Virus record (IMG/VR): IMGVR_UViG_3300042691_017783
Span: 1 to 29,544 of that record
Direction: 5' to 3' (one strand)
Source: a virus
Length of the DNA: 29,544 nt
Shown: piece after piece, positions 4,284 to 22,816 of the stretch
Numbering within the stretch: position 1 is the stretch's first letter
Layout of the letters: each line of letters starts with the position of its first letter
The notes under the pieces: model-generated
The model's input: the letters and a program-made list of their open reading frames with translations, nothing else
Told to the model about the DNA's origin: nothing
The model's database searches: none
Translations under genes and position numbers: made by a program

Positions 4284-4291
4284 TATTTATT
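4284..4291 (+). promoter_or_regulatory. Candidate late promoter motif (TATTTATT)
   Basis: ATTATATTTATT lies in the gap after the terminase gene, 29 bases before the ATG at 4321. It belongs to the recurrent TATTTATA set seen in other gaps of this window. Promoter function and direction are inferred from position only. Confidence 0.45.
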
Positions 4292-4320
4292 AATGTTGTA
4301 CTTATTTTTTGGAGAATCCC

Positions 4321-4683
4321 ATGAAGCGTAGTGAATTAGAAGAAATTATACGTGAAGAGATAGAGAAGTACTTGCAAGAAAATTCTGTTTCTCTTGAAGA
4401 AAAATATGATTCTGATGGAACTGTTCCTCGCGTACATAATAGAACAATGACACCTGCACAGATCAAAAAAAGAGAAAGTATCGGTAAAAAGATACTTAAG
4501 GCAATTAGTAATGGCGATGATAAGAAAAATCCACTACGCCGCGCATTTATTCGTTGGGCTGCAAAAAATGATAAGCCAATCACATCGGAAAAGACTATGA
4601 ATTCATATGCATGGGCAATGGCAAGTGATTATGCTATCAAAGGCAAGACGTTTGCTACAAAACGATCACGAAAGAAACAATAA
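4321..4683 (+). CDS. Small conserved phage protein, IREEI-type N-terminus
   Basis: 120 aa. The ATG at 4321 is preferred over an upstream in-frame TTG because GGAGA sits 5 bases before it and overlaps the TTG. The N-terminal helix carries the motif IIREEIEKYLQE, with an L-x-E at 18-20 that would fit a gp21-type cleavage site. The middle contains MTPAQIKKRESIGKKIL, a basic segment I have seen in other phage hypotheticals. The C-terminus is very basic (KRSRKKQ), which would suit nucleic-acid contact inside the head. First gene of the small-protein cluster between terminase and portal, behind a candidate promoter. Function unknown. Confidence 0.75.
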   Translation: MKRSELEEIIREEIEKYLQENSVSLEEKYDSDGTVPRVHNRTMTPAQIKKRESIGKKILKAISNGDDKKNPLRRAFIRWAAKNDKPITSEKTMNSYAWAMASDYAIKGKTFATKRSRKKQ

Positions 4684-4701
4684 TTTACACGGAGATAACC
4701 C

Positions 4702-5292
4702 ATGATACGTTTAATTGGCTTAGTGGATCTTAAAAATATTGCACCGTTCAACACGGAAGCATTAGATCCAGTTGGTAAGGAAGATTCTGACATTGATAAC
4801 GATGGTGATGTAGATTCTTCTGACAAATATTTGAAAAATCGCAGAAATGCAGTTGAAAAAAATCTCAAAAAAGAATCAACTACATTGAAAGAAGAGAACC
4901 CAGATAATCCAGATATTGTTGATGATCACGAAGGTCAGATGGCAAAAGCAGATTTGATGTCTATTCACAAAAAAGCTGCTGAGATTTATAATATGCTCGG
5001 TGACAATGAAGAGTTGGAAGGCTGGGTACAAGCTAAGATTACAAAAGCAGCAGAGTATATCAATGCAATTCATAACAATTTGAGTTATGAAAAGTCTAGC
5101 CCAGGATCATTGGGTTCTGGTGATGGTACACCAGCAGACAAGACCATGGGAGTTGACGAAGTTACCTTAAGCGAAAAGGCTCCTGCCGGTTGGGAAAAGA
5201 CTGTGAAGTCTATGAAAAAGCACAAAGAAATTGATAATCCATTTGCCCTAGCCCAGTATATGAAAAAGAAGGGCTATACTCCACATAAGTAA
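4702..5292 (+). CDS. Small phage protein with EF-hand/dockerin-like Ca2+ loop
   Basis: 196 aa, preceded by GGAGATAACCC. Residues 30-41 ([12 protein letters not shown]) place Asp at loop positions 1, 3, 5 and 12, as in an EF-hand or dockerin calcium site, followed by KYLKNRR. The middle, around [19 protein letters not shown], is a helical segment I associate with other T4-like small proteins. The C-terminal [20 protein letters not shown] with KKKGYTPHK is another widespread phage tail piece. So it looks like three mini-modules in series. Calcium binding is inference; the function is unknown. The next gene starts one base after the stop. Confidence 0.75.
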
Positions 5293-5293
5293 T

Positions 5294-5683
5294 ATGAAAA
5301 ATCCAATTTCATTACTAGAAACCCAGTTAAATAATTTGATTGCAGAAATTGAAGAGCTTTTATCGGAAGATATAACGCCATCAGTAACCAATCCAAAAAC
5401 TGGAAAGCAAATAAAAGCAACCAGTGCCTTGAAACCAGATCATCCGGCATATGCTGCTGCCAAGAGATTGTTGCAAGGTAAAAAGATGAGTGCTGGGCAA
5501 CGCCGTGGTTTGAAAAAGCTTGCAACAGCAGCTCTGTCAAAGACCAGACCAAAGAAAGGACCATCCAAAATGAGTAAGGCGACAAAAAGTCCAGCTCAGG
5601 CTGCATTTAAAAAACAACGTGGTATGGAAAGAAAGGGAGCTAAGTCAGATACAGCATACTCTGTATTTGGACCAGATAACTGA
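5294..5683 (+). CDS. Small basic protein with NPxTG mini-domain
   Basis: 129 aa, starting one base after the preceding stop with no SD, so probably translationally coupled. The N-terminus MKNPISLLE ends in an L-x-E (7-9). Residues about 33-65 contain NPKTGKQIKATSALKPDHPA, the same mini-domain as the two copies in the protein at 3-1439. The second half is Lys/Arg-rich (RPKKGPSKMSK, KKQRGMERKG) and probably nucleic-acid-binding or disordered. Function not recognised. The basic composition would suit a DNA-associated virion protein. Confidence 0.7.
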   Translation: MKNPISLLETQLNNLIAEIEELLSEDITPSVTNPKTGKQIKATSALKPDHPAYAAAKRLLQGKKMSAGQRRGLKKLATAALSKTRPKKGPSKMSKATKSPAQAAFKKQRGMERKGAKSDTAYSVFGPDN

Positions 5684-5690
5684 GATTGTT

Positions 5691-6053
5691 ATGGAATCAA
5701 TTGCAAAGTTTTTAGGAACGCTTATGTCTAGTAGGACACAAGCACATGTATTCCACCTACAAACACCGTCATATGCCGCACATAAAGCATTGGATGAGTA
5801 TTATAGTGGAATAGTAGATTTAATAGATTCATATGCAGAAATGTCTCAGGGTAGATATGGTATCATTCGTGGATACCAAATGTCTGCACAGATATTAGAA
5901 GATGATTCTGCATTAAAATATTTTATGGGATTGCAAAAGTTTGTAGATGGAATTCGTACACAATTGCCACAAGATGGTGAACTGAACAATACAGTTGATG
6001 AAGTATCTGGTTTAATTTCGTCAACTATTTACAAGTTGAAATTTTTGAGATAA
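5691..6053 (+). CDS. Helical protein, DUF5856-like (ferritin-like helical fold suspected)
   Basis: 120 aa from the ATG at 5691, just after the previous TGA. A longer in-frame version starting at 5619 would overlap the previous gene by 65 bases and is less likely. The all-helical sequence, with MSSRTQAHVFHLQTPSYAAH, the DLIDSYAEMSQGRYGIIRGY stretch and the C-terminal STIYKLKFLR, matches my memory of the phage family DUF5856. Paired His/Glu/Asp positions along helices are reminiscent of Dps/ferritin-like bundles, but I cannot confirm a metal site. Weak SD, so probably coupled to the upstream gene. Role unknown. Confidence 0.65.
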   Translation: MESIAKFLGTLMSSRTQAHVFHLQTPSYAAHKALDEYYSGIVDLIDSYAEMSQGRYGIIRGYQMSAQILEDDSALKYFMGLQKFVDGIRTQLPQDGELNNTVDEVSGLISSTIYKLKFLR

Positions 6054-6055
6054 GT

Positions 6056-7272: not shown

Positions 7273-9168
7273 ATGGCAGATACTAGTATTTATGGTAGAC
7301 TGAAGAAGCTGTTTTCTACTAACACAGTAGTTAGAAATATTGGTGGAAAAAAACTTCGTATCGCAGATACAGATCAAATACAAAGCTTTGTAAACAGACG
7401 AGGTGTTGATAGATATCATAGAGTTTATCAATCACAAACCGGTGGATATGGGTCGCAACATGGAAGATATGAGGCAGCAGCAGCGTTTCAAGGCGCAAGA
7501 TTGCAGTTGTTTCGTGATTATGACATGATGGACAACGATCCTATAATTTGCTCTGTGTTAGATATTTATGCTGATGAATCTACTGTAAAGGATGAATTTG
7601 GTAAAATACTTAGTATCAAAACCGATAATACTCAAGTTCAAGAAATATTACAAAATTTGTTTTATGATATCCTAAACGTAGAATTTAATCTCTGGCCGTG
7701 GATACGAAACATGGCAAAATACGGAGATTTTTTCTTACATTTAGACATTCATCCGGAATACGGAATAATAAATGCAATACCGTTGTCTGTTTATGAGACT
7801 ATACGTGTTGAAGGAGAAGATCCAAACAATCCATTTAGTGTAAGTTTTAAGATTGAAAATGATTTCCTAAATTTAGGAAAGAAAGATTTTGATAATTATG
7901 AGGTTGCACACTTCCGTTTGTTAGCAGATACGAATTTTCTACCATACGGAAAGGCAATGATAGAAGGTGGGCGGCGCGTTTGGAAGCAACTTCAACTCAT
8001 GGAAGATGCGATGTTAGTACATCGTATCATGAGAGCACCAGATAAGCGCAAATTCAAGATTGATATTGGAAATATCCCACCGAATGAAATTGAAACCTTC
8101 ATGAACAGAATTATCGACCGTATGAAAAAGACGCCGTTGGTCGATCCAAAAACAGGCGATTATAATCTTCGCTACAACATGATGAATATCACCGAAGATT
8201 TCTACCTACCAGTTCGTGGAAAAGAAAGTGGCACGGATATTGAAACGATGCAAGGATTGCAATTCAATGCGATTGAAGACATTGAATACCTTCGTAAGAA
8301 ATTATTAGCCGCATTCAAAGTACCGAAATCATTTATTGGCTACGAAGAAGATATCAATGGTAAAGCAACACTCGCCGCACAAGATGTACGATTTGCACGA
8401 ACAATTGAACGTATTCAACGTATTGTCGTTTCTGAATTAACAAAAATTGCGATTGTGCATCTATATGTGCAAGGATTTACTGATGAAACTCTTGTTAATT
8501 TTGAATTATCATTGACAAATCCATCTACGTTAGCGGAACAAGAAAAAATAAACATTTGGAAAGAAAAATTTGCACTAGCACAACAAATGACAGGTGGGCA
8601 AGCACAATTACTTTCACAAGATTGGGTATATAACAACATTCTTGAAATGTCAGATGAAGATGTCGTTGATGAACGTAGAAAAATTGAAGAAGATATCAAA
8701 CGTGTTCAACAACAGATGGCAGCGGCACAGCCAGACCTTGGAAATATGGAGCAGGGAGGAGAACAACCAGCAGTTTCTCCGGAAACGGGTGAATCTCCTG
8801 AAGAAACAGAAGCTCCATCCGATGAAACTGAACCGGGTGATGAACAAGAAGCGCAAATTGACACCGTAGATAAGATTTTACAGAGTTTGGAAGACATTCC
8901 AGACGAAGATGAAGAAGATTTAGAAGAATCGTTGGTGAAAAAGAAAGGTGGTAGACCAAGGGAAGGATTAAAGTTTGCAACAGATCGCCATCCTCTCGGT
9001 AGAGATCCTCTTGGTCATAAAGAAAACAAAAAAATGACTAAGCGGACATCGTTATCATTTGAATCTGCCGATTTTATAAGGAAATTGTCTGATAAGTTTA
9101 CAAATCAGTCACAATACAAAAAAATTATATCTGAAAGTATCTCAAATGATGAAAAAACAGAATGTTAA
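7273..9168 (+). CDS. 20: Portal vertex protein (gp20-like)
   Basis: 631 aa, behind a strong GAGGAG SD. Portal proteins form the dodecameric ring on which the prohead initiates, DNA enters and the neck attaches. T4 gp20 family signatures include LYDPIIC-like DNDPIICSVLDIYADEST near 90, YGKAMIEGGRRVWKQL, IMRAPDKRKFKIDIGN, MQGLQFNAIEDIEYLRKKLL and VPKSFIGYEEDINGKATLA. The core resembles T4 gp20 (524 aa), but a C-terminal extension of about 140 residues follows. That extension is Gln/Pro/Glu-rich (about 480-560), strongly acidic, then basic with GGRPREGLKFATDRHPLG and a final Lys-rich tail. The tail may be disordered and could interact with scaffold or terminase (inference). Confidence 0.97.
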   Translation: MADTSIYGRLKKLFSTNTVVRNIGGKKLRIADTDQIQSFVNRRGVDRYHRVYQSQTGGYGSQHGRYEAAAAFQGARLQLFRDYDMMDNDPIICSVLDIYADESTVKDEFGKILSIKTDNTQVQEILQNLFYDILNVEFNLWPWIRNMAKYGDFFLHLDIHPEYGIINAIPLSVYETIRVEGEDPNNPFSVSFKIENDFLNLGKKDFDNYEVAHFRLLADTNFLPYGKAMIEGGRRVWKQLQLMEDAMLVHRIMRAPDKRKFKIDIGNIPPNEIETFMNRIIDRMKKTPLVDPKTGDYNLRYNMMNITEDFYLPVRGKESGTDIETMQGLQFNAIEDIEYLRKKLLAAFKVPKSFIGYEEDINGKATLAAQDVRFARTIERIQRIVVSELTKIAIVHLYVQGFTDETLVNFELSLTNPSTLAEQEKINIWKEKFALAQQMTGGQAQLLSQDWVYNNILEMSDEDVVDERRKIEEDIKRVQQQMAAAQPDLGNMEQGGEQPAVSPETGESPEETEAPSDETEPGDEQEAQIDTVDKILQSLEDIPDEDEEDLEESLVKKKGGRPREGLKFATDRHPLGRDPLGHKENKKMTKRTSLSFESADFIRKLSDKFTNQSQYKKIISESISNDEKTEC

Positions 9169-9182: not shown

Positions 9183-9190
9183 TATTTACT
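9183..9190 (+). promoter_or_regulatory. Candidate late promoter motif (variant TATTTACT)
   Basis: GATATATATTTACTTATATATGC lies in the 62-base gap after the portal gene, about 40 bases before the next ATG. It is the poorest match of the intergenic set, and the AT repeat could equally form a weak AU hairpin. Confidence 0.3.
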
Positions 9191-10565: not shown

Positions 10566-11150
10566 ATGGGATTGCTATGTGAATTTACCGAATTGCAATA
10601 CAACAGAGATTTATTGTCTGAATCGTTAGATAGCAATAAGCCATTGGTATTGAGAAACGTAGTGCTTCAGCGTGCAAATGCAAAAAATCAAAATGGAAGA
10701 GTGTATCCTAGAGATATATTGATGCGCGAAGCTCAAATATATAAGAAAAACTTTGTTGATTCCAGAAGAGCGGTAGGAGAACTAGATCATCCAGAAAGTC
10801 CTGTTGTTAATTTGAAGAATGTTTGTTGCAACATTGTTGGTTTATGGACAGATGGTGACGATGTTCGTGGGGACATTGAAATATTAACAACTCCAACTGG
10901 AAATATAGTAAAAGAGCTTATAAAAAATAATATACGTCTTGGTGTAAGCTCGCGTGGAATGGGATCGGTTCGTCAGATGGGAGAAAATACAGTTGAAGTG
11001 CAAGAAGATTTCTCGCTTATCTGCTTTGATATCGTTAGTAACCCTTCTACGATTGGCGCATTCATAACAGAAAATACACAGCAGCAAACCGTTTCTAAAT
11101 ATGATGTGGTTGATAAATTAATTCACGATTTCTTGAGTGAACTTAAGTAA
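10566..11150 (+). CDS. 21: Prohead core protease (gp21-like)
   Basis: 194 aa serine protease that matures the prohead by cutting scaffold, capsid and internal proteins. RNVVLQRANAKNQNGRVYPR (30-49) is the family N-terminal signature. The catalytic His is His75 in GELDHPES, and the catalytic Ser lies in GVSSRGMGS (Ser128 or Ser129). ICFDIVSNPSTIGAF (152-166) completes the fold, which is related to herpesvirus assemblin. Length is close to T4 gp21 (212 aa). AGAGGA lies before the ATG, and the gene follows the STTGGVAGY protein by 2 bases. Known family specificity is after (L/I)-x-E. Confidence 0.95.
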   Translation: MGLLCEFTELQYNRDLLSESLDSNKPLVLRNVVLQRANAKNQNGRVYPRDILMREAQIYKKNFVDSRRAVGELDHPESPVVNLKNVCCNIVGLWTDGDDVRGDIEILTTPTGNIVKELIKNNIRLGVSSRGMGSVRQMGENTVEVQEDFSLICFDIVSNPSTIGAFITENTQQQTVSKYDVVDKLIHDFLSELK

Positions 11151-11151
11151 T

Positions 11152-11505: not shown

Positions 11506-11517
11506 TTTGGGGGTATA

Positions 11518-11733: not shown

Positions 11734-11754
11734 TGTTTTTCAAAACAAACAATA

Positions 11755-11762
11755 TATTTATA
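11755..11762 (+). promoter_or_regulatory. Candidate late promoter motif (TATTTATA)
   Basis: Exact TATTTATA core within AATATATTTATATTAG, 21 bases after the bS21 stop. Unusually, a hairpin follows 8 bases downstream, so a transcript starting here would meet it at once. Confidence 0.35.
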
Positions 11763-11770
11763 TTAGTAAA

Positions 11771-11794
11771 ACACCAATTTAATAATATTGGTGT
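11771..11794 (+). terminator. Putative terminator after bS21
   Basis: ACACCAAT (11771-11778) pairs with ATTGGTGT (11787-11794), an 8-bp stem with an 8-base AT loop, followed by TATTATTTATAT, which is U-rich but interrupted. It probably ends the portal/protease/bS21 unit. Moderate strength. Confidence 0.55.
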
Positions 11795-11797
11795 TAT

Positions 11798-11805
11798 TAT
11801 TTATA
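11798..11805 (+). promoter_or_regulatory. Candidate late promoter motif for scaffold/capsid unit (TATTTATA)
   Basis: Exact TATTTATA directly after the hairpin at 11771-11794, 53 bases before the scaffold ATG. The longer leader holds a second inverted repeat (11814-11833). Confidence 0.45.
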
Positions 11806-11813
11806 TCAAAAAT

Positions 11814-11833
11814 AACAGATGCTAATATCTGTT
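11814..11833 (+). repeat. Inverted repeat in the scaffold-gene leader
   Basis: AACAGAT (11814-11820) and ATCTGTT (11827-11833) form a 7-bp stem with a 6-base loop, followed by TTGTTAAT. It stands 10 bases before the SD AGGGGAG of the scaffold gene. It could be an mRNA-stabilising 5' hairpin or a weak attenuator. Confidence 0.4.
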
Positions 11834-11858
11834 TTGTTAATACAGGGGAGTAACCTTT

Positions 11859-12941: not shown

Positions 12942-14516
12942 ATGTCAGATGTACAATCATTTATCAATGAAGCTAACCACGCACACGAAGCTATCATTGC
13001 ACAAACCCGTAAGCTTTCGGGAAAGTGGGAACGTTCAGGTCTTCTTGAAGGCTTGAAGGGATATGAGAAGCAAGGTATGGCTGTTATGCTTGAAAACCAA
13101 GCAAAGCAACTCCTTGACGAAAGTAGTAAGACGAATTCAGCCGGTTCAGCCGGTGAAAACTGGGCAGGTGTTGCACTTCCATTAGTCCGTAAGGTTTTCG
13201 GAAGTATTGCAAGTAAGAACTTCGTTTCTGTACAACCAATGAATCTTCCAGCCGGTCTTGTGTTCTACATGGACTTCAAGTACGGTAACACTGTAAATGG
13301 AAAGACAGCAGGACAGTCACTTTATGGTAGTGCATTAAGCTCACCATACACATCATTCGGTAACCAAACTTCAGGTGGTCTATATGGCCCAGGTGCATTT
13401 GGATACACTGTAAATGATGCAAGTGTAACTGGCTTAACAGCAGCAACTGCATCTGTAGCATTTGCAGATGTCAACTTCAACGCTGATTTTGTTACAACTG
13501 GCTCGTACAGAAAGTTCACAGTAACAGGTTCAGCATTCACGAATGCAGACTTCTTAGCATCACGCGCATTCATTCCAAGTGGATCTGGTGCAAACTTTGG
13601 CACATTAGTTCTTCCTGAGTTCACAAAGTACGATGGACAAAACTTGACATTCGTTGTTAACACAACAGCAAATGCAGTATTGACAAGTGTACAATACGTC
13701 AAGCAACCGGTTGACACAGATCGTGGTGACTTTGAAGATCGTGATGGTTCAACAGATTTGCAAATTCCACAAATTGATTTGGAACTCAAGAGTGAAACAA
13801 TTGTTGCTAAGACACGTAAGTTGAAGGCCGTATGGTCACCAGAACTTGCACAAGACTTGAATGCATACCACAGTGTTGATGCGGAAGCAGAATTAACAGC
13901 AATGTTAAGTGATTACATCGCAACAGAAGTTGACCTTGAAATTCTTGACATGTTAATTCAAGCTGCACCATCAGTAAACACTGAATACTGGTCAGCAGAA
14001 ATTGGTTCAGTATGGAACGGTACATCGTTTGGAACTCCAACCTTCTCAGGAACGGCATGGACCAACCAAACATGGTTCCAAACTCTTGGTCAGAAGATGC
14101 AAAAGGTCAGTAACAAGATTCACCAAGCAACAATGCGCGGTGGTGCTAACTTCGCAGTAGTTTCACCAACAGTTGCAACAATTCTTGAAACAATCCCTGG
14201 CTTCCAAGCTGGTACAGATGGTGACAAGATGGAGTTTGCAGGTGGCGTTACAAAGGTTGGATCATTCGTTAACCGCTTCACAATCTACAAGAACCCATAC
14301 ATGACAGAAAATGTAATGCTCATGGGCTTCCGTGGTACACAATTCTTGGAAACTGGTGCAGTATATGCTCCATACATTCCATTAATCATGACACCACTTG
14401 TGTATGATCCACAAAACTTCACACCACGTAGAGGTGTAATGACACGTTACGCTAAGAAGATCGTTCGTCCGGAATTCTTCGGCAAGATCTACATCGACAA
14501 GCTTAACTTAGTCTAA
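12942..14516 (+). CDS. 23: Major capsid protein (gp23-like)
   Basis: 524 aa, nearly the size of T4 gp23 (521). HK97-fold shell subunit. Signatures: SGKWERSGLLEGL, GENWAGVALPLVRKVFGSI, LKAVWSPELAQDLNAYHSVD, TMRGGANFAVVSPTVATIL, YAPYIPLIMTPLVYDPQNF and a C-terminus typical of the family (KKIVRPEFFGKIYIDKL). The T4 prohead protease removes about 65 N-terminal residues; LLDE at 57-60 followed by Ser is the matching (L/I)-x-E candidate here (inference). A Ser/Thr/Gly-rich stretch at about 125-250 is probably the insertion domain. The SD is TAGGAG. Codons favour TTC, AAC and AAG by eye, unlike the small genes, as expected for a very abundant product. Confidence 0.97.
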   Translation: MSDVQSFINEANHAHEAIIAQTRKLSGKWERSGLLEGLKGYEKQGMAVMLENQAKQLLDESSKTNSAGSAGENWAGVALPLVRKVFGSIASKNFVSVQPMNLPAGLVFYMDFKYGNTVNGKTAGQSLYGSALSSPYTSFGNQTSGGLYGPGAFGYTVNDASVTGLTAATASVAFADVNFNADFVTTGSYRKFTVTGSAFTNADFLASRAFIPSGSGANFGTLVLPEFTKYDGQNLTFVVNTTANAVLTSVQYVKQPVDTDRGDFEDRDGSTDLQIPQIDLELKSETIVAKTRKLKAVWSPELAQDLNAYHSVDAEAELTAMLSDYIATEVDLEILDMLIQAAPSVNTEYWSAEIGSVWNGTSFGTPTFSGTAWTNQTWFQTLGQKMQKVSNKIHQATMRGGANFAVVSPTVATILETIPGFQAGTDGDKMEFAGGVTKVGSFVNRFTIYKNPYMTENVMLMGFRGTQFLETGAVYAPYIPLIMTPLVYDPQNFTPRRGVMTRYAKKIVRPEFFGKIYIDKLNLV

Positions 14517-14545: not shown

Positions 14546-14570
14546 GGGGTGGCGAAAGCCACCCCTTTTT
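14546..14570 (+). terminator. Strong rho-independent terminator after capsid gene
   Basis: GGGGTGGC (14546-14553), GAAA tetraloop, GCCACCCC (14558-14565), then TTTTTATTT. Perfect 8-bp GC-rich stem with a GNRA loop, 29 bases past the capsid stop. Ends the gp22-gp23 unit. Confidence 0.95.
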
Positions 14571-14606: not shown

Positions 14607-14614
14607 TATTTATA
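14607..14614 (+). promoter_or_regulatory. Candidate late promoter motif (TATTTATA)
   Basis: Exact TATTTATA, 25 bases before the ATG at 14640 and about 40 bases after the capsid terminator. Would drive the small protein and the gp13-14-15 genes. Confidence 0.55.
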
Positions 14615-14639
14615 TGTGTACTTTTATATGGAGAGTTGT

Positions 14640-14852: not shown

Positions 14853-14866
14853 ACTAGAGAATTTTA

Positions 14867-16030
14867 ATGCAAAATCGTGAACCAATTGTTTTTGAAGAAA
14901 ATCCAATCAGTCCAGTAAATATTACTCCGTTTGGATTTTACGATAGCGACCAAATTTTTCAAAACGAAGCTCCAAACGTGGCATCATTTGTTGCACGGCG
15001 GTTGGGATATCCAGTTGTTGATGTGGAGTTAACACATAAACAAATATATGCTTGTTTTGAAGAAGCAGTAACAACGTACAGTAATCAAGTAAATCAATTT
15101 AATGCCAGAGAACACATGCTGTCATTACAAGGCTTGAGTACGTCTGTAAACGCTACACAACGAAATATAGTATCTAGTGCTATACCACAATTGGTAAAAC
15201 TTTCTGCACAGTATGGAACCGAAGCAGACAGTGGAGGTAACGTTACTGTAAAAAGAGGATATATTAGTGCATCTGCGAATGTACAGGCATATGATCTGAA
15301 GCAATGGGCAGATCAAAATGAAAGTGGTTCTGCCATTGAAATTCGTAGAGTATACCATTATATGCCACCGGCAATTGCAAGATACTATGATCCGTTTGCT
15401 ACAACCGGTCTTGGTCTTACAAATTTGATGAGCGAATTTGGATTTGATGGATATTCGCCACCGGTCATGTTCGTAATGATGCCAGCATATGAAGATTTAC
15501 TTCGTATTCAAGCAATTGAAATCAATGATATGATTCGTAAGAGTCAATATAGCTTTAGTATATCAAATAATGTGGTGAGATTTACACCAATTTTTACCAG
15601 AAATCAACTTGTATATTTTGATTATATTGTGGTTGATGATAAAACATCATTGAATGCTTTATTTCAATCGGGATCGGAAAATAGTGTAGTTTCTGATTTT
15701 TCAAATATACCATATCAAAATATACAATATAAAAATGTTAATAGTATTGGTAAACTTTGGATTTATAAGTATACCTTAGCATTGGCTAAAGAATTATTGG
15801 GAACTATTCGTTCTAAATATGAAAGTATCCCAATACCAGATGCACAAATTCGTTTAGATGGTGATACATTGAGAAGAGAGGCATCTGAAGAAAAGGATTA
15901 TCTAATAAAAGAAATTAGAGAAACATTAGATCAAACTGGATATTATGCACAGTTGAAAAAACAAGTTGAAAATTCCGAAGCTATGCAAAATATTTTCTTG
16001 AAGATACCTACGCAAATTTTTATTGGATAA
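14867..16030 (+). CDS. 13: Neck protein (gp13-like)
   Basis: 387 aa (T4 gp13 is 309). Family signatures: FGFYDSDQIFQNEAPNVASF with VARRLGYPVVDVEL near residues 25-55, EEAVTTYSNQVNQFNAREHM, and EIRRVYHYMPPAIARYYDPF near 165. The C-terminal helical region contains LGTIRSKYESIPIPDAQIRLDG, also typical. T4 gp13 sits on the portal after packaging, and with gp14 forms the neck that receives the tail. GAGA precedes the ATG. The next gene starts 3 bases after the stop. Confidence 0.88.
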   Translation: MQNREPIVFEENPISPVNITPFGFYDSDQIFQNEAPNVASFVARRLGYPVVDVELTHKQIYACFEEAVTTYSNQVNQFNAREHMLSLQGLSTSVNATQRNIVSSAIPQLVKLSAQYGTEADSGGNVTVKRGYISASANVQAYDLKQWADQNESGSAIEIRRVYHYMPPAIARYYDPFATTGLGLTNLMSEFGFDGYSPPVMFVMMPAYEDLLRIQAIEINDMIRKSQYSFSISNNVVRFTPIFTRNQLVYFDYIVVDDKTSLNALFQSGSENSVVSDFSNIPYQNIQYKNVNSIGKLWIYKYTLALAKELLGTIRSKYESIPIPDAQIRLDGDTLRREASEEKDYLIKEIRETLDQTGYYAQLKKQVENSEAMQNIFLKIPTQIFIG

Positions 16031-16033
16031 TTT

Positions 16034-16492
16034 ATGCCACGATTTGTTAGTGAACGAGACTTTTTATTTTTTCAACACATTAACCGAGAAATTGTGGTTG
16101 ATGTGGTTGATGTAGAAGTTATATTGTACAAAATCATTAATGATGTTGTGAAAGTAAATATTTACGGCGAATCAACGGAGAAGATTCAGTACCGTGGCAT
16201 AAGTTTAAATGCATTGATAAAATATACAAAAACATCACCGATTTCGGATGGATTTGGATCGGACATTGTACAACAAAATGTTGAATTTAGATTTGTTAGA
16301 AAAATACTACAGGATGTGAATGTATATCCAGAGATAGGTGATATTATTTCATATAATGGAAATTATTATGAAATTGATAACACGAACGAGGCACAATTGA
16401 TAGCAAGTAGACCTGAATATAATCAAACTATCGTTTGTGAAACACATTTAACACGCTTGAGTAGTTTAAATATTGAGGACACACACATATGA
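16034..16492 (+). CDS. 14: Neck protein (gp14-like)
   Basis: 152 aa, shorter than T4 gp14 (256). Features fitting the family: the opening FQHINREIVVDVVDVEVILY, then VNIYGESTEKIQYRGI, ISDGFGSDI, VYPEIGDIISYNGNYYEIDN near 105-122, and a C-terminal ETHLTRLSSLNI. No SD, and it follows gp13 by 3 bases, so probably coupled. Its stop overlaps the next ATG. Predicted to complete the neck with gp13. The assignment rests on motif recall plus the conserved 13-14-15 order. Confidence 0.8.
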   Translation: MPRFVSERDFLFFQHINREIVVDVVDVEVILYKIINDVVKVNIYGESTEKIQYRGISLNALIKYTKTSPISDGFGSDIVQQNVEFRFVRKILQDVNVYPEIGDIISYNGNYYEIDNTNEAQLIASRPEYNQTIVCETHLTRLSSLNIEDTHI

Positions 16493-17277
16493 GCATACCT
16501 GAATTCAATCCAAATGCTCCACGGTCATCCACGTACAATCGTGGAAATGATAACAAAACAGAAGAGGGGGTAACAATTCCTGTATCAGTTGGATTGGAAA
16601 CTATAGATACGGCTATACTTGGATTTTTACAAACAAAAATAAAACCTATAGTCACTCAGGATGGAAAACAAATACAAGTTCCTGTGTTGTATGGAAATCC
16701 TGAACGATGGAAAAGTGCACAGCAAGATGGTGGTATACGTGACAAAAACGGTAAAATATTATTACCAATTATGATGTTACGTAGAACTACGATGAAAAAG
16801 AATACAATAAATTCTCCAGTTAACAAGTATAATAATTATATTTTTAAAGCTGGATGGAATGCAAGAAATGTATACGATAAGTTTGCTGCGCTGAATAACA
16901 TATCTCCTAGTCAGGTATACCATTCTAGCATGATACCAGATTATTATGATATTTCATATGATGCAATGATATGGACGGAGTATATGGAGCAAATGAATAA
17001 AATTGTAGAAAATGTTTCTTATGAAAGTGATGAATATTGGGGAGATAGTAACAATTATAGATTTATAACATCAATAGATCAGTTTGAACAAATCACGGAA
17101 TTGCCTAGTGCCGGTGACAGATTGGTTAGAAGTAAATTTGCTATTAATGTAAAAGCATATATTTTACCAAAATCTGCACTGGACAAGAATGGTAATAGAA
17201 CACAAGTAACTAAAATGGTTTATTCTCCCAAGAAAGTGGTGTTTGATACCGAAATTATTACTTCTATAATAAAATAA
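16489..17277 (+). CDS. 15: Tail terminator/sheath stabiliser (gp15-like)
   Basis: 262 aa (T4 gp15 is 272). Matching positions include a membrane-less N-terminus with LETIDTAILGFLQTKIKPIV, then QVPVLYGNPERWKS (equivalent to T4 'RVPITYASKEHF'), LPIMMLRRTT, YHSSMIPDYYDISYDAMIWT, and EYMEQMNKIVENVSYESDEY (equivalent to T4 'RYEDDMFQIVEQ'). T4 gp15 caps the finished tube and sheath and joins them to the neck. GAGGAC serves as SD, and the start overlaps the gp14 stop by 4 bases. A weak terminator follows. Confidence 0.85.
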   Translation: MSIPEFNPNAPRSSTYNRGNDNKTEEGVTIPVSVGLETIDTAILGFLQTKIKPIVTQDGKQIQVPVLYGNPERWKSAQQDGGIRDKNGKILLPIMMLRRTTMKKNTINSPVNKYNNYIFKAGWNARNVYDKFAALNNISPSQVYHSSMIPDYYDISYDAMIWTEYMEQMNKIVENVSYESDEYWGDSNNYRFITSIDQFEQITELPSAGDRLVRSKFAINVKAYILPKSALDKNGNRTQVTKMVYSPKKVVFDTEIITSIIK

Positions 17278-17300
17278 TCATATTTTCGGAATGATTTTTT
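17277..17300 (+). terminator. Weak putative terminator after gp15
   Basis: ATCAT (17277-17281) pairs with ATGAT (17291-17295), with one further pair past a bulge and a TTTCGG loop, followed by five Ts. Low stability, but it follows the pattern of terminator then promoter motif seen elsewhere here. Confidence 0.4.
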
Positions 17301-17301
17301 A

Positions 17302-17309
17302 TATTTATG
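17302..17309 (+). promoter_or_regulatory. Candidate late promoter motif (TATTTATG)
   Basis: TTATATTTATGATATG, 31 bases before the ATG at 17341. Would drive the coiled-coil protein and the sheath gene. Confidence 0.45.
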
Positions 17310-17340
17310 ATATGTATACTAGTTTATAGAGAGGTTATAT

Positions 17341-17601
17341 ATGAAAGTTGTATCTGAACAAGAATTAAAGGCTGTACAAGACATGCGAAATTCGTTAGTA
17401 GAAATAATAACTAAAATAGGTGAATTGCATCTTGGTAAATTTCTTTTAGAAAACGAGATCAAGCAAATAGAAAAGAGCACCACTGACGAAGAAAATAAGT
17501 TTGTACAGATTCAAGAACAAGAAAGGGTTTTATATGAAAGTTTACAGCAAAAATATGGAACCGGTAATATAAATTTTGATACTGGCGAAATACAGGAATA
17601 A
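17341..17601 (+). CDS. Small coiled-coil protein before the sheath gene
   Basis: 86 aa, with an AGAGAGG SD. Nearly the whole length is a predicted two-helix coiled coil (ELKAVQDMRNSLVEIITKIG; QIEKSTTDEENKFVQIQEQE), ending in YGTGNINFDTGEI. That C-terminal piece recurs in small proteins next to sheath genes of other T4-like phages as I remember them. Function unknown. Co-transcription with the sheath suggests a tail-assembly helper. Confidence 0.75.
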   Translation: MKVVSEQELKAVQDMRNSLVEIITKIGELHLGKFLLENEIKQIEKSTTDEENKFVQIQEQERVLYESLQQKYGTGNINFDTGEIQE

Positions 17602-17624
17602 TATAACCCATTTGGAGGATTCGT

Positions 17625-19964
17625 ATGGCAAATGAAAGAATTGTTTCTCCTGGTGTATTCACTAGAGAACGAGACTTGAGTTTTTTGACTCAAGGCATCA
17701 GTGAAATCGGGGGCGCATTTATTGGACCAACGCCAAAAGGTCCAGCGTTTATACCAACAATTGTAAGAAGTCAGCAAGAGTACGTTACCCGTTTTGGCGA
17801 AGCCGATGCGAGTCACTATACTGGGTTGACTGTAAAAAATTATTTAAGAGAAGCTGGCGTTGCAACTGTAGTCAGAGTGCTTGGGTTGGAAGGATATAAC
17901 CCATCAACTACGACATCTGCGGTAATTTATGCTTCCGGCTCAAACGGAAGACGAGTATTTGCAGTATTGCATCCAACAAGTACTGGAAATACGTTAACAA
18001 ATGCGGCTGCGGGCGGCACAACGGCAAGTATTAGTTTGGTGCTATCCGGTTCGGGTGGTGCAAACATATCTGCTAGTGGATTTAGTCCATTTGATTCATC
18101 TACTTCATATATTGGAGACTTTTTCTCAACATCTCCTTCAAGCACAAGAAATGCATACATTTATGCAATATTCCCAACGGCAGTATCTTCAAGTCTTGGA
18201 GCAAGTATCAGCTTCCTAGCAGAAACATCAAGTGCAATCTTGAATTTCTCAGGATCTACTTTCGGCGCATACTCACATGCATCAACACCTTGGGTACAAT
18301 CACAAACCATTGGTGGAACAAAAGTTGATTTGTTTAAACTTCACACATTAAGTGATGGAAATGCTGCAAATAAAGAAGTAAAGGTATCATTTATCAATAT
18401 GAAGCCAAGTGATGATGTTGATAATAATTACGGTACATTTACTATGTTGATTCGTAGATATGATGATACCGACTCAAAGTTGGAAATATTAGAACAATAT
18501 GACAACTTAAATCTAGATCCAAACAGTCCACAATATATTGCTAGAGTAATTGGAAACAGTGCACCAACAGAAGATACGGTCACTGGTGAAATGTATTATC
18601 AAGGAGATTTCCCAAATCGTTCACAATATGTTTGGGTAGAAATGAATGATATACCTCTTCCAGAGTCAGCATTGCCGTTTGGGTTCCAAGCAGTGCTATC
18701 TACAGTTAACGTACCTTCGTCAGTTCTAGTTTCTCCATCATACGTAACTACACGTTGGCTTGATGGATCAACCGCTGGATATACTACACAGTCTGTTGAT
18801 AAGAAATTCTATTATGGATGGGAGTTCGACAGTTCCAATGAAGTAAATTCTTCATACTTGAATGCCATTCCATCTGGATCACCGCAAGTTGGATCAGTAT
18901 TTAATCTAGAAAATGTAGTAGACGTTCCTAACGGAAGTACTGCTAAGGCAATTAGTTTAACTGATACAGACAGTTTGGCATATCGTAAGTTTACCGTTCC
19001 ATTCCAAGGTGGATTTGATGGATTGAATCCAGCAAGAGATATTAGTCTAGGTGGAGATATCGTTGCTACAAATTCACAAGGGTTCAACCTAGCAACCTCA
19101 GTATCACCAGGATCAAAAGCATATAAGAAAGCTCTTAATGCCATAAGTAATCCTGACCAATATGACTTCAACTTGTTAGTTCTTCCTGGTGTAATCTATG
19201 AATTGCACTCATATGTTGCCAATGAAGCATTAAGCTTGTGTGAAGATCGTGGAGATGCATTCTATATCATGGATACTGTTGGATTAAATGCTACACTAGT
19301 AACAGCAACTGGTAAGGCTGCGGAAATTGATAGTAATTATGCAGCAACTTATTATCCTTGGTTGAGAGTCATTGATACTAATACTAACAAGCTGTTGTGG
19401 GTACCGCCGTCAATAATATTGCCAGAAATATATGCATATAATGACAATGTTGCCGCAGAATGGTTTGCTCCAGCAGGATTGAATCGTGGTGGTATTGCAA
19501 GTGCTGTTGGTGTGAAGGTACGTCTTCCACAAACAAGTAGAGATACGTTGTATGAAGGAAAAGTAAATCCAATTGCACAATTCCCAGGACAGGGTATCTG
19601 TGTGTGGGGTCAAAAGACATTACAACGTAGATCTTCTGCACTTGATCGTGTAAACGTTCGACGCTTATTGATCGCGTTGAAGAAATTTATTGCTAGCTCT
19701 TCACGTTATCTAGTATTTGAACAAAATGTAGAAGCGACAAGAAATCGTTTCTTGAATATAGTAAATCCATACTTGGCAAGTGTACAAGAACGCAGTGGTT
19801 TGTATGCATTCCGTGTCATCATGGATGAAACTAATAACACGCCTGACGTAATTGATCGTAACGTATTGTATGGTCAAATCTACTTGCAGCCAACTAAGAC
19901 CGCTGAATTCATAGTTCTTGATTTCAACGTGCTCCCAACGGGCGCAGTATTCCCAACGGCGTAA
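17625..19964 (+). CDS. 18: Tail sheath protein (gp18-like)
   Basis: 779 aa contractile sheath subunit; T4 gp18 is 659. N-terminal signature SPGVFTRERDLSFLTQGISE followed by GAFIGPTPKGPAFIPTIV. A Ser/Thr/Ala/Gly-rich insertion (about residues 100-240, including SGSGGANISASGFSPFDSST) probably forms surface domains. The conserved C-terminal half has SLCEDRGDAFYIMDTVGLN, YYPWLRVIDTNTNKLLWVPP and EWFAPAGLNRGGI. It ends with QTLQRRSSALDRVNVRRLL-type sequence and VFEQNVEATRNRFLNIVNPY, all standard for phage sheaths. Strong TTGGAGGA SD. The tube gene follows after a terminator and a new promoter motif. Confidence 0.97.
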   Translation: MANERIVSPGVFTRERDLSFLTQGISEIGGAFIGPTPKGPAFIPTIVRSQQEYVTRFGEADASHYTGLTVKNYLREAGVATVVRVLGLEGYNPSTTTSAVIYASGSNGRRVFAVLHPTSTGNTLTNAAAGGTTASISLVLSGSGGANISASGFSPFDSSTSYIGDFFSTSPSSTRNAYIYAIFPTAVSSSLGASISFLAETSSAILNFSGSTFGAYSHASTPWVQSQTIGGTKVDLFKLHTLSDGNAANKEVKVSFINMKPSDDVDNNYGTFTMLIRRYDDTDSKLEILEQYDNLNLDPNSPQYIARVIGNSAPTEDTVTGEMYYQGDFPNRSQYVWVEMNDIPLPESALPFGFQAVLSTVNVPSSVLVSPSYVTTRWLDGSTAGYTTQSVDKKFYYGWEFDSSNEVNSSYLNAIPSGSPQVGSVFNLENVVDVPNGSTAKAISLTDTDSLAYRKFTVPFQGGFDGLNPARDISLGGDIVATNSQGFNLATSVSPGSKAYKKALNAISNPDQYDFNLLVLPGVIYELHSYVANEALSLCEDRGDAFYIMDTVGLNATLVTATGKAAEIDSNYAATYYPWLRVIDTNTNKLLWVPPSIILPEIYAYNDNVAAEWFAPAGLNRGGIASAVGVKVRLPQTSRDTLYEGKVNPIAQFPGQGICVWGQKTLQRRSSALDRVNVRRLLIALKKFIASSSRYLVFEQNVEATRNRFLNIVNPYLASVQERSGLYAFRVIMDETNNTPDVIDRNVLYGQIYLQPTKTAEFIVLDFNVLPTGAVFPTA

Positions 19965-19975
19965 TACTATAAAAA

Positions 19976-19999
19976 GTGGAGGGATTAGCCTCCCTCCAC
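19976..19999 (+). terminator. Rho-independent terminator after sheath gene
   Basis: GTGGAGGGA (19976-19984), loop TTAGCC, TCCCTCCAC (19991-19999), then ATTTTATAAT. Perfect 9-bp GC-rich stem 11 bases past the sheath stop. The A-run before the stem and the U-rich sequence after it fit a terminator. Confidence 0.9.
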
Positions 20000-20016
20000 A
20001 TTTTATAATATCATTA

Positions 20017-20024
20017 TATTTATA
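20017..20024 (+). promoter_or_regulatory. Candidate late promoter motif before tube gene (TATTTATA)
   Basis: ATTATATTTATAGC with an exact TATTTATA, 26 bases before the tube ATG and immediately after the sheath terminator. This terminator-motif-SD-gene order is the cleanest in the window. Confidence 0.6.
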
Positions 20025-20050
20025 GCTAGATATCCTTTCGGAGATTATAC

Positions 20051-20539
20051 ATGCCAAACATAGTATCAGAACAAGAGCTATTCTTCACCGCGTTTGAACC
20101 AAAGATGACAAATCGTTTCATCCTATACATGGATGGAATTCCTTCATATTTGGTTAAGAAAGTAGCTCGTCCATCAATAACACAAGAAAAGAAACCAATT
20201 GATCACATTAACGTACAGCGTTATGTAAAGGGCAAGACTATTTGGGGAGAAATGCAAATGACATTGTATGATCCAATAGTTCCGTCAGGTGCTCAGGCTG
20301 TAATGGAATGGGTTCGTTTACATCACGAATCTGTAACTGGTCGTGACGGTTATCTTGAGTTCTATAAGAAAGATTTAACACTCAATATTCTAGGACCAGT
20401 AGGCGATAGAGTTGAAGAGTGGATTATCAAGGGTGCACAAATTACTCAAGTTCAATTCGGTGATATGGATTGGTCACAGGACAATCCTGTAGAATTCACA
20501 ATGACAGTACAACCAGATTACTGTATACTAAACTACTAA
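20051..20539 (+). CDS. 19: Tail tube protein (gp19-like)
   Basis: 162 aa, matching T4 gp19 (163). Forms the hexameric rings of the inner tube through which DNA passes. Signatures: MTNRFILYMDGIPSYLVKKV, ARPSITQEKKPIDHINVQRY, KGKTIWGEMQMTLYDPIVPS, WVRLHHESVTGRDGY, and the C-terminal DWSQDNPVEFTMTVQPDYC. Preceded by CGGAGATTATAC. It stands as a single-gene unit with its own promoter motif and terminator, which suits the high copy number of tube subunits. Confidence 0.96.
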   Translation: MPNIVSEQELFFTAFEPKMTNRFILYMDGIPSYLVKKVARPSITQEKKPIDHINVQRYVKGKTIWGEMQMTLYDPIVPSGAQAVMEWVRLHHESVTGRDGYLEFYKKDLTLNILGPVGDRVEEWIIKGAQITQVQFGDMDWSQDNPVEFTMTVQPDYCILNY

Positions 20540-20555
20540 TAGTACTTTGGTTTTA

Positions 20556-20588
20556 AAAATCCTCCGTGACCAAATCACGGAGGATTTT
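20556..20588 (+). terminator. Strong terminator after tube gene
   Basis: A 14-bp perfect stem, AAAATCCTCCGTGA (20556-20569) and TCACGGAGGATTTT (20575-20588), with a CCAAA loop, followed by GTTTTTG. The A/T-flanked design could work in both directions. The 133-base gap 20540-20672 holds only this and the next promoter motif. Confidence 0.95.
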
Positions 20589-20635
20589 GTTTTTGTATAA
20601 ACATAACAAAACCATCATATTACCTCTTAAATTTA

Positions 20636-20643
20636 TATTTATA
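20636..20643 (+). promoter_or_regulatory. Candidate late promoter motif before fibre genes (TATTTATA)
   Basis: TTTATATTTATACAAGG with an exact TATTTATA, 29 bases before the ATG at 20673. Confidence 0.55.
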
Positions 20644-20672
20644 CAAGGGGTGTCTTATATTGAGAGATATTT

Positions 20673-21023
20673 ATGGTAGAATCTACGAAATTTGAAATTG
20701 GTCAAGGGGAAACGTTTAAAATACACGTTCAATTAAAAAACCAAAATCAAAATAACACGCCGGTAGACATAACTAGCTATGCATTTGTTGGTCAAGTTCG
20801 TGAAAATTATACGACCGATGAAATTGCGGCTACATTTACATTTACAAAAAATTTACCATATTCTTCTGGAAGTATTTTTATAGAATTAACTCCAGCCGAC
20901 ACATTGCAATTAACTCAGCGAAATTATGTATATGACGTATATCTTACGAGTGGATCTGTTGTTCCTGTAACTCGTAGAATATTAGAGGGAAGTATGGTAG
21001 TTCGTCCTGCTGTAACGAGATAA
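20673..21023 (+). CDS. Small beta-rich fibre/baseplate-associated protein (BppU N-domain-like)
   Basis: 116 aa. Begins FEIGQGETFKIHVQLKNQNQ and continues with PVDITSYAFVGQVRENYTTD, then GSIFIELTPADTLQL, YVYDVYLTSGSVVPVTRRIL, EGSMVVRPAVTR. This follows the 'F.I..G.TF.I...P.DLTGY....R...I.L.L.A..T....YDL.......R...G.V.V.P.VTR' pattern of a common small phage protein that resembles the N-terminal domain of BppU-type receptor-binding assemblies. Probably a beta-sandwich adaptor between baseplate and fibre. SD is GAGAG. The fibre gene starts 3 bases after its stop. Confidence 0.7.
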   Translation: MVESTKFEIGQGETFKIHVQLKNQNQNNTPVDITSYAFVGQVRENYTTDEIAATFTFTKNLPYSSGSIFIELTPADTLQLTQRNYVYDVYLTSGSVVPVTRRILEGSMVVRPAVTR

Positions 21024-21026
21024 TAA

Positions 21027-22769
21027 ATGAGTGGTTCAATAGATACTAGTGATATTCTCGTTGTTGTTGATAAAGGTGAACAATATAATGTAAATCTACA
21101 ACCACCCGACCAATATGGAGTCTCCATACAGGCGGGTGATACCTACATTGTGAATATAGATTTACCCACCACAGCAGTTAATACCAATGTATCCACTTAT
21201 TATAGAGTGGCAGATTATGCCGCGTTCGCTGTCACGGCTGCTACCGCCAGTTTTTTGGGAGGGGCATCTGCTTCAATTCCTTGGGACAGTGTGGGAAACA
21301 AGCCCACGGGTTTATTATCATCTTCACAACAAATTAACGAGTTAGCAAACGTATCGGCATCGTTCGCCACCACTTCCAGTTATGCATTAAACGCGGGTTC
21401 TGGTGTAGGATTTCCATTCAGTGGATCGGCAATTATAACTGGTTCCTTGCTCGTTTCTGGTGGGAACATAATTGGTACATCTTCACTAGCCAGAGCAGTT
21501 ATAGGTGGTCTATCACGATACGTACCTTTATGGACCGGTTCTTCTGGCAATGAATTAACATCAAGTATTATATATCAACTACCAACAGGTATTTTTATTG
21601 GGTATGATACTCACCCACATACACATTCATTGGAAGGTGAAACATTAGCCGTACATTCGGGTGAAACTGGTGTTAAAAATGTTATCTATGCACATGGTAC
21701 AATAGATAATGATTATAGAATAAATATACGAAATATTAGTAATGGTGTTTCGGCATCTACAAACTACAAAGCAACTTCCGATGTAGGAAATGATTTTGGT
21801 GGGTATGTGCAATTTGGTATCAACTCTAGTACATATTCAAGAACAGATCAGATCGGTTCGTCACTAGATGCATATTTGTATGCAACCGGAAGTGATTTGT
21901 TAATAGGAAATGCTTCTCCCGATAAAAATATTATATTATTTAGTGGTGTTGGTAATGGTTTACAAAATGCTAGAATATTAATTTCACCAAGTGGTAGTGT
22001 TGGTATTAATTCAAGCTTCGTAGATCCTGTCGCTCCAGCAGCACTATTCATTCAATCACTAAATGAAAATACATATAACGTTGTCGTTGCCGAAGGCAGT
22101 GTAGACAACTATATGCAATTCAATTTAAGAAATGATAACACAGGTACATCGGCGTCTGCGGATTATGTTATAACTGCGGATAGCGGTACAGAAACAAGTA
22201 ATTATACTGACATGGGTATGAATAATAGTCAGTATAGTATTGAAGATGGTATAGGTGAGGCGCTTGACGGATATTTCTATACAACTGGTAATAATCTAGT
22301 ATTAGGAACTGCCACTGCTGATAAGGAAGTAAAAATATTTGCTGGTGGTTTTAGCTCAAATGAAAATAAAAAACTAATACTTCGTGCAAATAATCAACAC
22401 GAATTATCTGGATCATTGAGTGTATCTGGAAGTATACGTGTACTTGGTGCTATAATCAATGAATTAACTTCGTCGCATGCTATAACGGCATCGTATGCAC
22501 CAACGATATTACCGTCTGGAGTAGTGTCATCGTCCACACAGGTTAATTACGCTCAGTTACAAAATATTCCTAGTGGGATTGTTAGTAGTTCTGCACAAGT
22601 AATAACATTATTACCTTCCGGAACCGTATCTTCATCTGCACAAATAAACACTGGAAGTTTTAGTGGATCTTTTGTTGGTACATTTACTGGAACCGGTAGT
22701 TGGTCTAGAAATGCTGTATCAGCATCATATGCAATAACTGCTAGCTATATTGACGGTGGATTTTATTGA
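21027..22769 (+). CDS. Fibre-type structural protein with internal duplication
   Basis: 580 aa, starting 3 bases after the previous stop without an SD (coupled). The N-terminus GEQYNVNLQPPDQYGVSIQA is beta-rich, probably an attachment domain. ATASFLGGASASIPWDSVGN with KPTGLLSSSQQ follows, the low-complexity linker class shared with the next two genes. Two imperfect copies of a domain of about 105 residues follow (about 205-312 and 337-442), sharing DxY, RN...G.SAS, Y.....D.IG..LD.Y.Y.TG..L..G.A..DK. The C-terminus returns to linker repeats with LPSGVVSSSTQ and INTGSFSGSF. Probably a trimeric tail fibre or whisker subunit; the receptor is unknown. Confidence 0.75.
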   Translation: MSGSIDTSDILVVVDKGEQYNVNLQPPDQYGVSIQAGDTYIVNIDLPTTAVNTNVSTYYRVADYAAFAVTAATASFLGGASASIPWDSVGNKPTGLLSSSQQINELANVSASFATTSSYALNAGSGVGFPFSGSAIITGSLLVSGGNIIGTSSLARAVIGGLSRYVPLWTGSSGNELTSSIIYQLPTGIFIGYDTHPHTHSLEGETLAVHSGETGVKNVIYAHGTIDNDYRINIRNISNGVSASTNYKATSDVGNDFGGYVQFGINSSTYSRTDQIGSSLDAYLYATGSDLLIGNASPDKNIILFSGVGNGLQNARILISPSGSVGINSSFVDPVAPAALFIQSLNENTYNVVVAEGSVDNYMQFNLRNDNTGTSASADYVITADSGTETSNYTDMGMNNSQYSIEDGIGEALDGYFYTTGNNLVLGTATADKEVKIFAGGFSSNENKKLILRANNQHELSGSLSVSGSIRVLGAIINELTSSHAITASYAPTILPSGVVSSSTQVNYAQLQNIPSGIVSSSAQVITLLPSGTVSSSAQINTGSFSGSFVGTFTGTGSWSRNAVSASYAITASYIDGGFY

Positions 22770-22808
22770 TACACTTAAAAATAGAAGTGGTAAGTTTACT
22801 GAATGGAC

Positions 22809-22816
22809 TATTTATA
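22809..22816 (+). promoter_or_regulatory. Candidate late promoter motif (TATTTATA)
   Basis: GGACTATTTATAATAG with an exact TATTTATA, 28 bases before the ATG at 22845. No convincing terminator precedes it; only a weak CACTT/AAGTG hairpin lies at 22772-22789. Confidence 0.5.

Follow-up and report, generated by a model that had tools for sequence, protein, structure and literature searches.

The question raised by IMG/VR virus record IMGVR_UViG_3300042691_017783 is in which direction, and by what factor, the octamer TATTTATA is read in the gaps between its genes. The stretch analysed here (the window, 29,544 nucleotides or 29.5 kb) is the whole viral record and carries a late structural module with its genes on the + strand. 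Late transcription in T4 is a textbook case, and the initial annotation took the octamer for the T4 late promoter, TATAAATA, in reverse complement. Our analysis points to a different answer as the probable one: TATTTATA would be a T4-type late promoter that reads forward with a changed code, and its reader would be a divergent sigma factor of the gp55 type. Specifically, the octamer would be the -10-like element of late promoters in a distant T4-like myovirus lineage, oriented in the direction of the genes, and a phage-encoded, very divergent gp55-type sigma (a sigma-2 domain with recognition of the -10 only) would direct the host RNA polymerase to it.

Nine sites are present at the positions first named for them, and six of the nine are exact copies of TATTTATA (+ strand, at 11755, 11798, 14607, 20017, 20636, and 22809). 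The non-exact copies are TATTTATT at 4284, TATTTATG at 17302, and TATTTACT at 9183; an additional TATTTATT lies at 22821. The octamers in front of the open reading frames (ORFs) at 4321, 14640, 17341, 20051, 20673, and 22845 do end 25-31 bases 5' of the ATG, as claimed. However, what had been described as a fixed distance to the start codon is a narrow range instead (a single exact spacing matched 1 site). Terminators were also said to precede several sites, and terminator-like hairpins do: a hairpin scan of positions 11000-23000 found 16 hairpins versus 6.7 expected, three of which precede sites (14546-14565, 19976-19999, and 20556-20588) while another (11770-11795) lies immediately 5' of the copy at 11798. 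The layout of a late operon would tend to be terminator, late promoter, start codon. The sites and hairpins are listed below, together with the presence of TATTTA in upstream regions of orthologous genes (see below for this test).

4284..4291, + strand: late-promoter-like element TATTTATT before ORF 4321; TATTTA in 3/3 unique upstream regions
9183..9190, + strand: variant TATTTACT before ORF 9231; TATTTA in 19/20 unique upstream regions
11755..11762, + strand: TATTTATA, 104 nt 5' of ORF 11859 and upstream of a hairpin; not conserved
11770..11795, + strand: terminator-like hairpin (hairpin scan)
11798..11805, + strand: TATTTATA, 61 nt 5' of ORF 11859; poorly conserved
14546..14565, + strand: terminator-like hairpin 3' of the capsid gene (hairpin scan)
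14607..14614, + strand: TATTTATA before ORF 14640; its counterpart in relatives is directly 5' of the neck gene (ORF 14867)
17302..17309, + strand: TATTTATG before ORF 17341; TATTTA in 36/41 unique upstream regions
19976..19999, + strand: terminator-like hairpin 3' of the tail sheath gene (hairpin scan)
20017..20024, + strand: TATTTATA before the tail tube gene (20051); TATTTA in 34/34 unique upstream regions
20556..20588, + strand: terminator-like hairpin 3' of the tail tube gene (hairpin scan)
20636..20643, + strand: TATTTATA before ORF 20673; TATTTA in 18/33 upstream regions
22809..22816, + strand: TATTTATA before ORF 22845; TATTTA in 3/9 upstream regions, orthology uncertain
22821..22828, + strand: second copy, TATTTATT, 24 nt 5' of the ATG (motif count)

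When strands are counted against a shuffled control, the octamer is enriched in the gaps but not significantly so in the window as a whole. Over the whole window and both strands there are 7 copies versus 3.98 expected, and 10 of 100 shuffles reach 7; given the AT-richness of the window, this count is not significant. Within the 8 gaps that are at least 30 bases long and lie between accepted genes, TATTTATA is present 6 times versus 0.52 expected, a number that 0 of 2000 dinucleotide shuffles reach, and TATTTAT 9 times versus 1.39. Seven of these 8 gaps contain TATTTAT, the remaining one has TATTTAC, and TATAAATA is found in none of them. The + strand coding sequence of the window (24.7 kb) contains no TATTTATA and 2 copies of TATTTAT; the single - strand copy of TATTTATA is at 9863.

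A scan with the capsid protein yielded 80 related loci, which with the window make up 1.09 Mb and 452 upstream gaps of at least 40 bases (duplicates kept). In this set TATTTATA is found 153 times in gaps and 32 times in coding sequence, compared with 3 and 7 times for its reverse complement; in the relatives its density is 3.36/kb in gaps versus 0.031/kb in coding sequence. It is, together with ATATTTAT (190 copies, none in reverse), the commonest 8-mer in the gaps of the relatives. Relatives and window contain 173 copies that lie no more than 150 nt from a gene start, and the distance from the first base of the octamer to the ATG is 31-36 nt in 90 of these (mode 34), 41-43 nt in 19, and 96-105 nt in 24. 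The initial annotation had named equal frequency inside genes and a lack of positional preference in relatives as grounds for discarding the motif; neither is what is found.

Conservation was assessed by grouping unique upstream regions according to the orthologous downstream gene and scoring TATTTA at up to 62 nt from the start codon. Upstream of the neck gene (ORF 14867) the hexamer is seen in 44 of 46 unique regions, and upstream of ORF 25467 in 11 of 28. Before genes that have no gap it is absent for ORFs 7273, 10108, 12942, and 16489 (20, 28, 42, and 47 regions, respectively) and present in few regions for the others, with a maximum at ORF 16034 (10/51, of which 1 is TATTTAT). The site at 9183, initially called weak, is indeed non-exact, but it is a conserved one. 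Conversely, the exact copies at 11755 and 11798 probably do not represent a general feature, because only 2 of 39 regions upstream of ORF 11859 have TATTTA. Several of the ORF 20673 orthologs whose upstream regions lack TATTTA carry TACTTATA. In orthologous upstream regions, the flanks are rewritten and the 7-mer is retained. The strand bias, the distance to the ATG, and the conservation before orthologs therefore argue for a directional promoter-like element rather than a flipped one; its promoter activity and late timing are inferred.

No conserved -35 element was found, since no upstream block is common to the six orthologous groups tested (a 169-site profile likewise gave none). The sequence TGATGTTT, of which there are 57 copies in the gaps of relatives and window, was considered as a -35-like element. 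It lies 22-23 nt 5' of TATTTA in about 21-22 of 36 anchored gene 17341 regions (for example, in loci L055, L056, and L059), and in the window it precedes the 11755 copy (11731-11738). At the corresponding place in five other orthologous groups it occurs 0 times. Because it is confined to the gene 17341 upstream regions, it was rejected as a -35-like element and as a general promoter component.

How, then, does the element compare with that of T4? The T4 late promoter element TATAAATA spans -13 to -6, numbered from T(-13), and is described as functioning without a -35 element (PMC2988020). Read in the same direction, TATTTATA and TATAAATA differ only at -10 and -9, where the AA of T4 is TT in the window lineage; the likeness of TATTTATA to the reverse complement arises because the sequence is near-palindromic. 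The initial reading thus holds for a late-promoter-like element but not for its reverse complement, and the forward reading differs from T4 at two positions. In T4 numbering the element would occupy -13 to -6, with a predicted transcription start about 20-25 nt 5' of the ATG. In both systems, an 8-bp -10-like element with no shared -35 lies about 35 nt 5' of late structural genes, the virion genes are T4-like, and a gp55-like, putatively sigma-2 protein is found in relatives of the window. As a control, the same analysis of a T4 late region gave 11 copies of TATAAATA and 5 of TATTTATA in 21 regions, with TATAAATA at 22-36 nt from the ATG (32-36 nt in 8 of the 11).

A substitution profile was made for the window's clade (296 upstream regions after deduplication) from all one-letter variants located 27-48 nt from the ATG, where 81 exact copies of TATTTATA and none of its reverse complement are found. 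At positions -13, -12, -11, -10, -9, -8, -7, and -6, respectively, the variants number 3, 7, 30, 13, 2, 0, 8, and 60. Read forward, positions -12, -9, and -8 are strict (as are -13 and -7), whereas -11, -10, and -6 are loose. In T4, pockets of gp55 take nontemplate A-12, A-9, and A-8 with residues Y97, N13/H95, and T99, respectively (PMC7892883), and these are positions with few variants here. A difference lies at -13, which is strict in the window lineage, whereas T4 is reported to tolerate A(-13) (PMC2988020). The same source describes the T4 late consensus as tightly adhered to and gives a/gC in place of TA at -13/-12 for the late promoter of Aeromonas phage Aeh1 (PMC2988020). Aeh1 is thus also a T4-family lineage with an altered late consensus, the alteration being at -13/-12 and not at -10/-9.

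A candidate reader comes from phages related to the window. Among phage records, the window's tail sheath is nearest to those of three phages: Microcystis phage Mel-JY01 (PP395634.1; loci L002 and L087-L090; 45.9% identity), LR756508 (uncultured, 484 kb; 42.4%), and Flavobacterium phage immuto (MW353175.1; 51.0% identity over 58%). A gp55 homologue, which the initial annotation had proposed to look for, is present in relatives as an unannotated gp55-like family that was recognized by profile match. ORF 78174-78872 of immuto (immuto26A_153), annotated as hypothetical, matches phrog_234 (T4 late sigma) with E 0.008; phrog_12791, another late sigma, was discarded as an identifier after it matched T4 only. 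The stronger argument is the family as a whole. Homologues of the immuto protein with 37-40% identity are encoded by Mel-JY01 and by 5 of 14 relative contigs, and LR756508 has one with 40.5% identity. The family is encoded in at least 599 stretches of one viral collection, of which 80 were kept. Alignment of 31 members with 8 gp55 sequences by hhalign gave a probability of 92% and E 6e-7 over 110 columns. Singly, 4 of the 31 members match phrog_234 (best 1.2e-4), and the Pfam family touched by the most members, if weakly, is Sigma70_r2 (7/31, best 0.037). By title, nearly all of the structure matches listed for the sigma model are sigma or RNA polymerase entries. The model appears to resemble sigma factors including T4 gp55 (7d7c), a likeness that supports but does not prove the fold; the VIA comparison of the model with 7d7c_F (T4 gp55) gave Z 9.8 and a root-mean-square deviation of 6.4 over 116 residues, which is within the chance range for helical models.

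When 84 family sequences are aligned with the 8 gp55 proteins, the residues of the pockets show a distinct pattern. The position of Y97 (-12 pocket) is Y in 84/84, and that of T99 (-8 pocket) is S in 83/84 and Q in 1, T to S being conservative; the E70 position is acidic and the F86 position aromatic in all 84. In contrast, N13 (-9 pocket) is N in 1 of 84 family members (T in 40, G in 32, and S in 7), compared with 7 of 8 canonical gp55 proteins. A change of H95 to F was rejected as the cause of the code change: F is found in 84/84 members but also in 5 of 8 canonical gp55 proteins, so this change explains nothing. The pocket residues for the unchanged bases at -12 and -8 are retained, and one of the two for the changed base at -9 is replaced. 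This is a correlation between aligned residues and code; the change from A to T at -10 and -9 relative to TATAAATA would plausibly result from a rebuilding of the shallow -9 pocket of the sigma, with loss of N13 and retention of the -12 and -8 pockets.

Members of the family are 221-256 amino acids long, compared with 185 for T4 gp55, and besides the replacement of N13 and E77 they differ from it by an extra C-terminal helical domain. Taken alone, this domain is modelled confidently (predicted local distance difference test (pLDDT) 86, predicted template modelling score (pTM) 0.78). No structure matches it clearly (lowest Foldseek E 1.7, highest VIA Z 5.3), and a sigma-4-like helix-turn-helix was considered and dropped as unproven. 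The domain (loci L105-L184) has invariant NKKA-Y and R-T residues, and many members of the family terminate in aromatic residues (SGSFF, FVYK), which were considered as a possible clamp-binding motif, though the clamp gp45 went undetected (see below).

The octamer is also seen beyond the window's clade. It outnumbers its reverse complement 15 to 5 in immuto, where the genes behind its sites include those of the sheath and the tape measure as well as the one after the sheath gene, and 16 to 3 in Mel-JY01. In sigma-bearing loci the numbers for TATTTATA versus TATAAATA are 12 versus 2 (33 loci) and 61 versus 3 (47 loci). Rhodothermus phage RM378 (L104, L192, L193), which has a weak relative of the sigma, carries a palindromic TATTTAAATA-like element in its gaps on both strands, with 33 TATTTA versus 20 TAAATA. 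In the gaps of phages with a canonical gp55, the TATAAATA/TATTTATA counts (S-RIM8 3/0, Cr30 1/0, phiN3 0/0, Moby 0/0) are too few to judge; TAAATA versus TATTTA is 9/3, 3/0, 7/4, and 4/0, respectively. As a separate observation, eight loci (L112, L113, L115, L117, L119, L123, L124, and L125) have a Shine-Dalgarno-like stretch, GGAGGTGATC, which in 6 of the 8 is directly followed by a AACAGTTA block and in some lies near a small membrane-like ORF.

The hosts of these phages appear to differ in promoter type. The Bacteroidota sigma-A promoter has a TTG at -33 and a -7 box, TAnnTTTG. Mel-JY01 has TTG-N15-24-TAnnTTTG in 17 of 81 gaps, against 2 for the reverse strand, whereas in G002 and G001, close relatives of the window, TTGAC-17/19-TAnnnT is found in 5 of 37 and 13 of 74 gaps (0 and 7 in reverse). 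These host-type elements of G001/G002 and Mel-JY01 presumably serve early genes. Shine-Dalgarno-like blocks precede 45% of the genes in the window, 48% in G002, 36% in G001, and 35% in Mel-JY01, compared with 4% in immuto. Since one late motif extends over both sigma70-like and Bacteroidota-like host promoter types, the reader would be phage-encoded. Two further observations concern these phages. At about 60-76 kb of immuto, many small genes have TATATTTAGGTATCAATAATTAAA or close variants shortly 5' of the ATG, often after a TTG-like block, as a second promoter class. Mel-JY01, though labelled a Microcystis phage, has Bacteroidota-type promoters and is a relative of a Flavobacterium phage, and its host label may deserve a check.

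These data bear on three other explanations of the element. The octamers could be canonical T4 late promoters on the opposite strand, which either drive antisense transcription or depend on a flipped sigma; the reverse complement of every exact site is, after all, TATAAATA. This proposal is highly improbable, since the sites are in gene-sense orientation (153 versus 3, and 81 versus 0 after deduplication), their spacing to the ATG resembles that of T4, and a flipped promoter would drive RNA polymerase away from the gene. In addition, a reverse reading would make the pocketed adenines of T4 the loose positions, since reverse -8 would receive 30 variants (T to C) and reverse -9 would receive 13, including 11 T to G. 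The sequence analysis gave no sign of antisense transcription at the sites. Alternatively, TATTTATA could be a variant host promoter, either a -10 or a Bacteroidota -7 box, that is used by the host sigma. Like TATTTATA, the -7 box is AT-rich and contains TTT, TATATTTA, which is frequent in immuto, resembles TAnnTTTG, and many small immuto genes that are presumably early have TATATTTAGGTATC after TTG-like blocks. However, the Bacteroidota promoter has the -33 TTG and the TTTG ending that TATTTATA does not, the same late motif is found with TTGACA-type promoters in the window's close relatives and with TTG-N-TAnnTTTG in Mel-JY01, and across four genomes TTG-N-TAnnTTTG shares a gap with TATTTAT in 0 or 1 gaps per genome (G002 0, G001 1, immuto 0, Mel-JY01 1). 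A host promoter is thus unlikely.

The element could also act in RNA, as an AU-rich signal in the leader that affects translation or the processing of mRNA. Its location shortly 5' of start codons and the terminator-like hairpins before several copies would suit such a role, but genes without a gap seldom or never have it upstream, the 7-mer stays while orthologous flanks are rewritten, and the strict and loose positions fit the pockets of a sigma. An RNA signal is therefore quite improbable, and a forward-reading late promoter recognized by a gp55-type sigma is the explanation preferred here.

Several results weigh against this preferred explanation. The sigma gene lies outside the window, which as a 29.5 kb record is probably a fragment, and it was not found in 4 of 8 contigs above 80 kb, including the 164 kb G001 (contigs may be incomplete). 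LR756508 encodes the sigma, yet the 46 gaps in the 73 kb inspected contain no TATTTATA, and some of the immuto sites precede genes not known as structural. As for the sigma itself, the same phrog_234 search, at a loose limit of E 1, was also positive in 7 of the 14 unrelated genomes used as controls, and hmmscan run directly on the immuto protein gave phrog_234 with E 0.5. The family profile found no sigma among PDB sequences, only chance matches; the AlphaFold2 model of the whole protein (pLDDT 75) has a pTM of 0.42, and Foldseek of this model against T4 gp55 gave E 2.2. The position of E77, a core-polymerase contact, is acidic in 0 of 84 members, and that of D74 in only 60 of 84. Homologues of gp33 (PF16805) and gp45 (PF09116), both of which were found in T4, were undetected in all 10 non-T4 records, several of which are fragments and in which divergence may hide them. 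Finally, the variant profile is built from related sequences, with the C at -11 probably coming largely from one orthologous gene, and variants outside the window's clade are too few to judge.

If the sigma does read TATTTATA, the altered code and its candidate reader would constitute a natural experiment on how base specificity changes in a minimal sigma factor, an unlabelled protein family would gain a testable function, and late operons could be annotated in many metagenomic phages. Among the papers listed by literature searches on T4-like late promoters, gp55, Flavobacterium phages, immuto, and Mel-JY01, none was on a TATTTATA motif. More tentatively, and with considerable doubt, one may imagine that a large unannotated T4-like branch rewrote its late code from TATAAATA to TATTTATA through a single rebuilt gp55-type pocket and fused the sigma to a new C-terminal domain that replaces the missing gp33 (perhaps altering clamp coupling), leaving a code that is independent of the sigma70 or Bacteroidota promoters of the host.

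The gene content of the window is that of a structural module, in the order terminase, portal, prohead protease, capsid, neck, tail sheath, and tail tube, with the following assignments.

2704..4278, + strand: terminase large subunit (PHROG match 3.2e-43)
7273..9168, + strand: portal protein (PHROG match 2.9e-69)
12942..14516, + strand: major capsid protein (PHROG match 7.3e-68)
17625..19964, + strand: tail sheath (PHROG match 6.2e-77)
20051..20539, + strand: tail tube (PHROG match 2.4e-26)

By such protein matches, the window appears to belong among the wider T4-like myoviruses; megablast of positions 20673-29544 against named phages gave no match. The small ORF 14640 (14640-14852), which lies between a promoter-like site and the neck gene, is matched in 0 other loci of the 80 relatives. 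Within the structural module, positions 5619-6053 match phrog_858, a "starvation-inducible transcriptional regulator" (E 1.6e-26). A homologue of ribosomal protein bS21 is located at 11518-11733, between the prohead genes and ORF 11859, and Mel-JY01 has a bS21 homologue between its own prohead protease and capsid genes.

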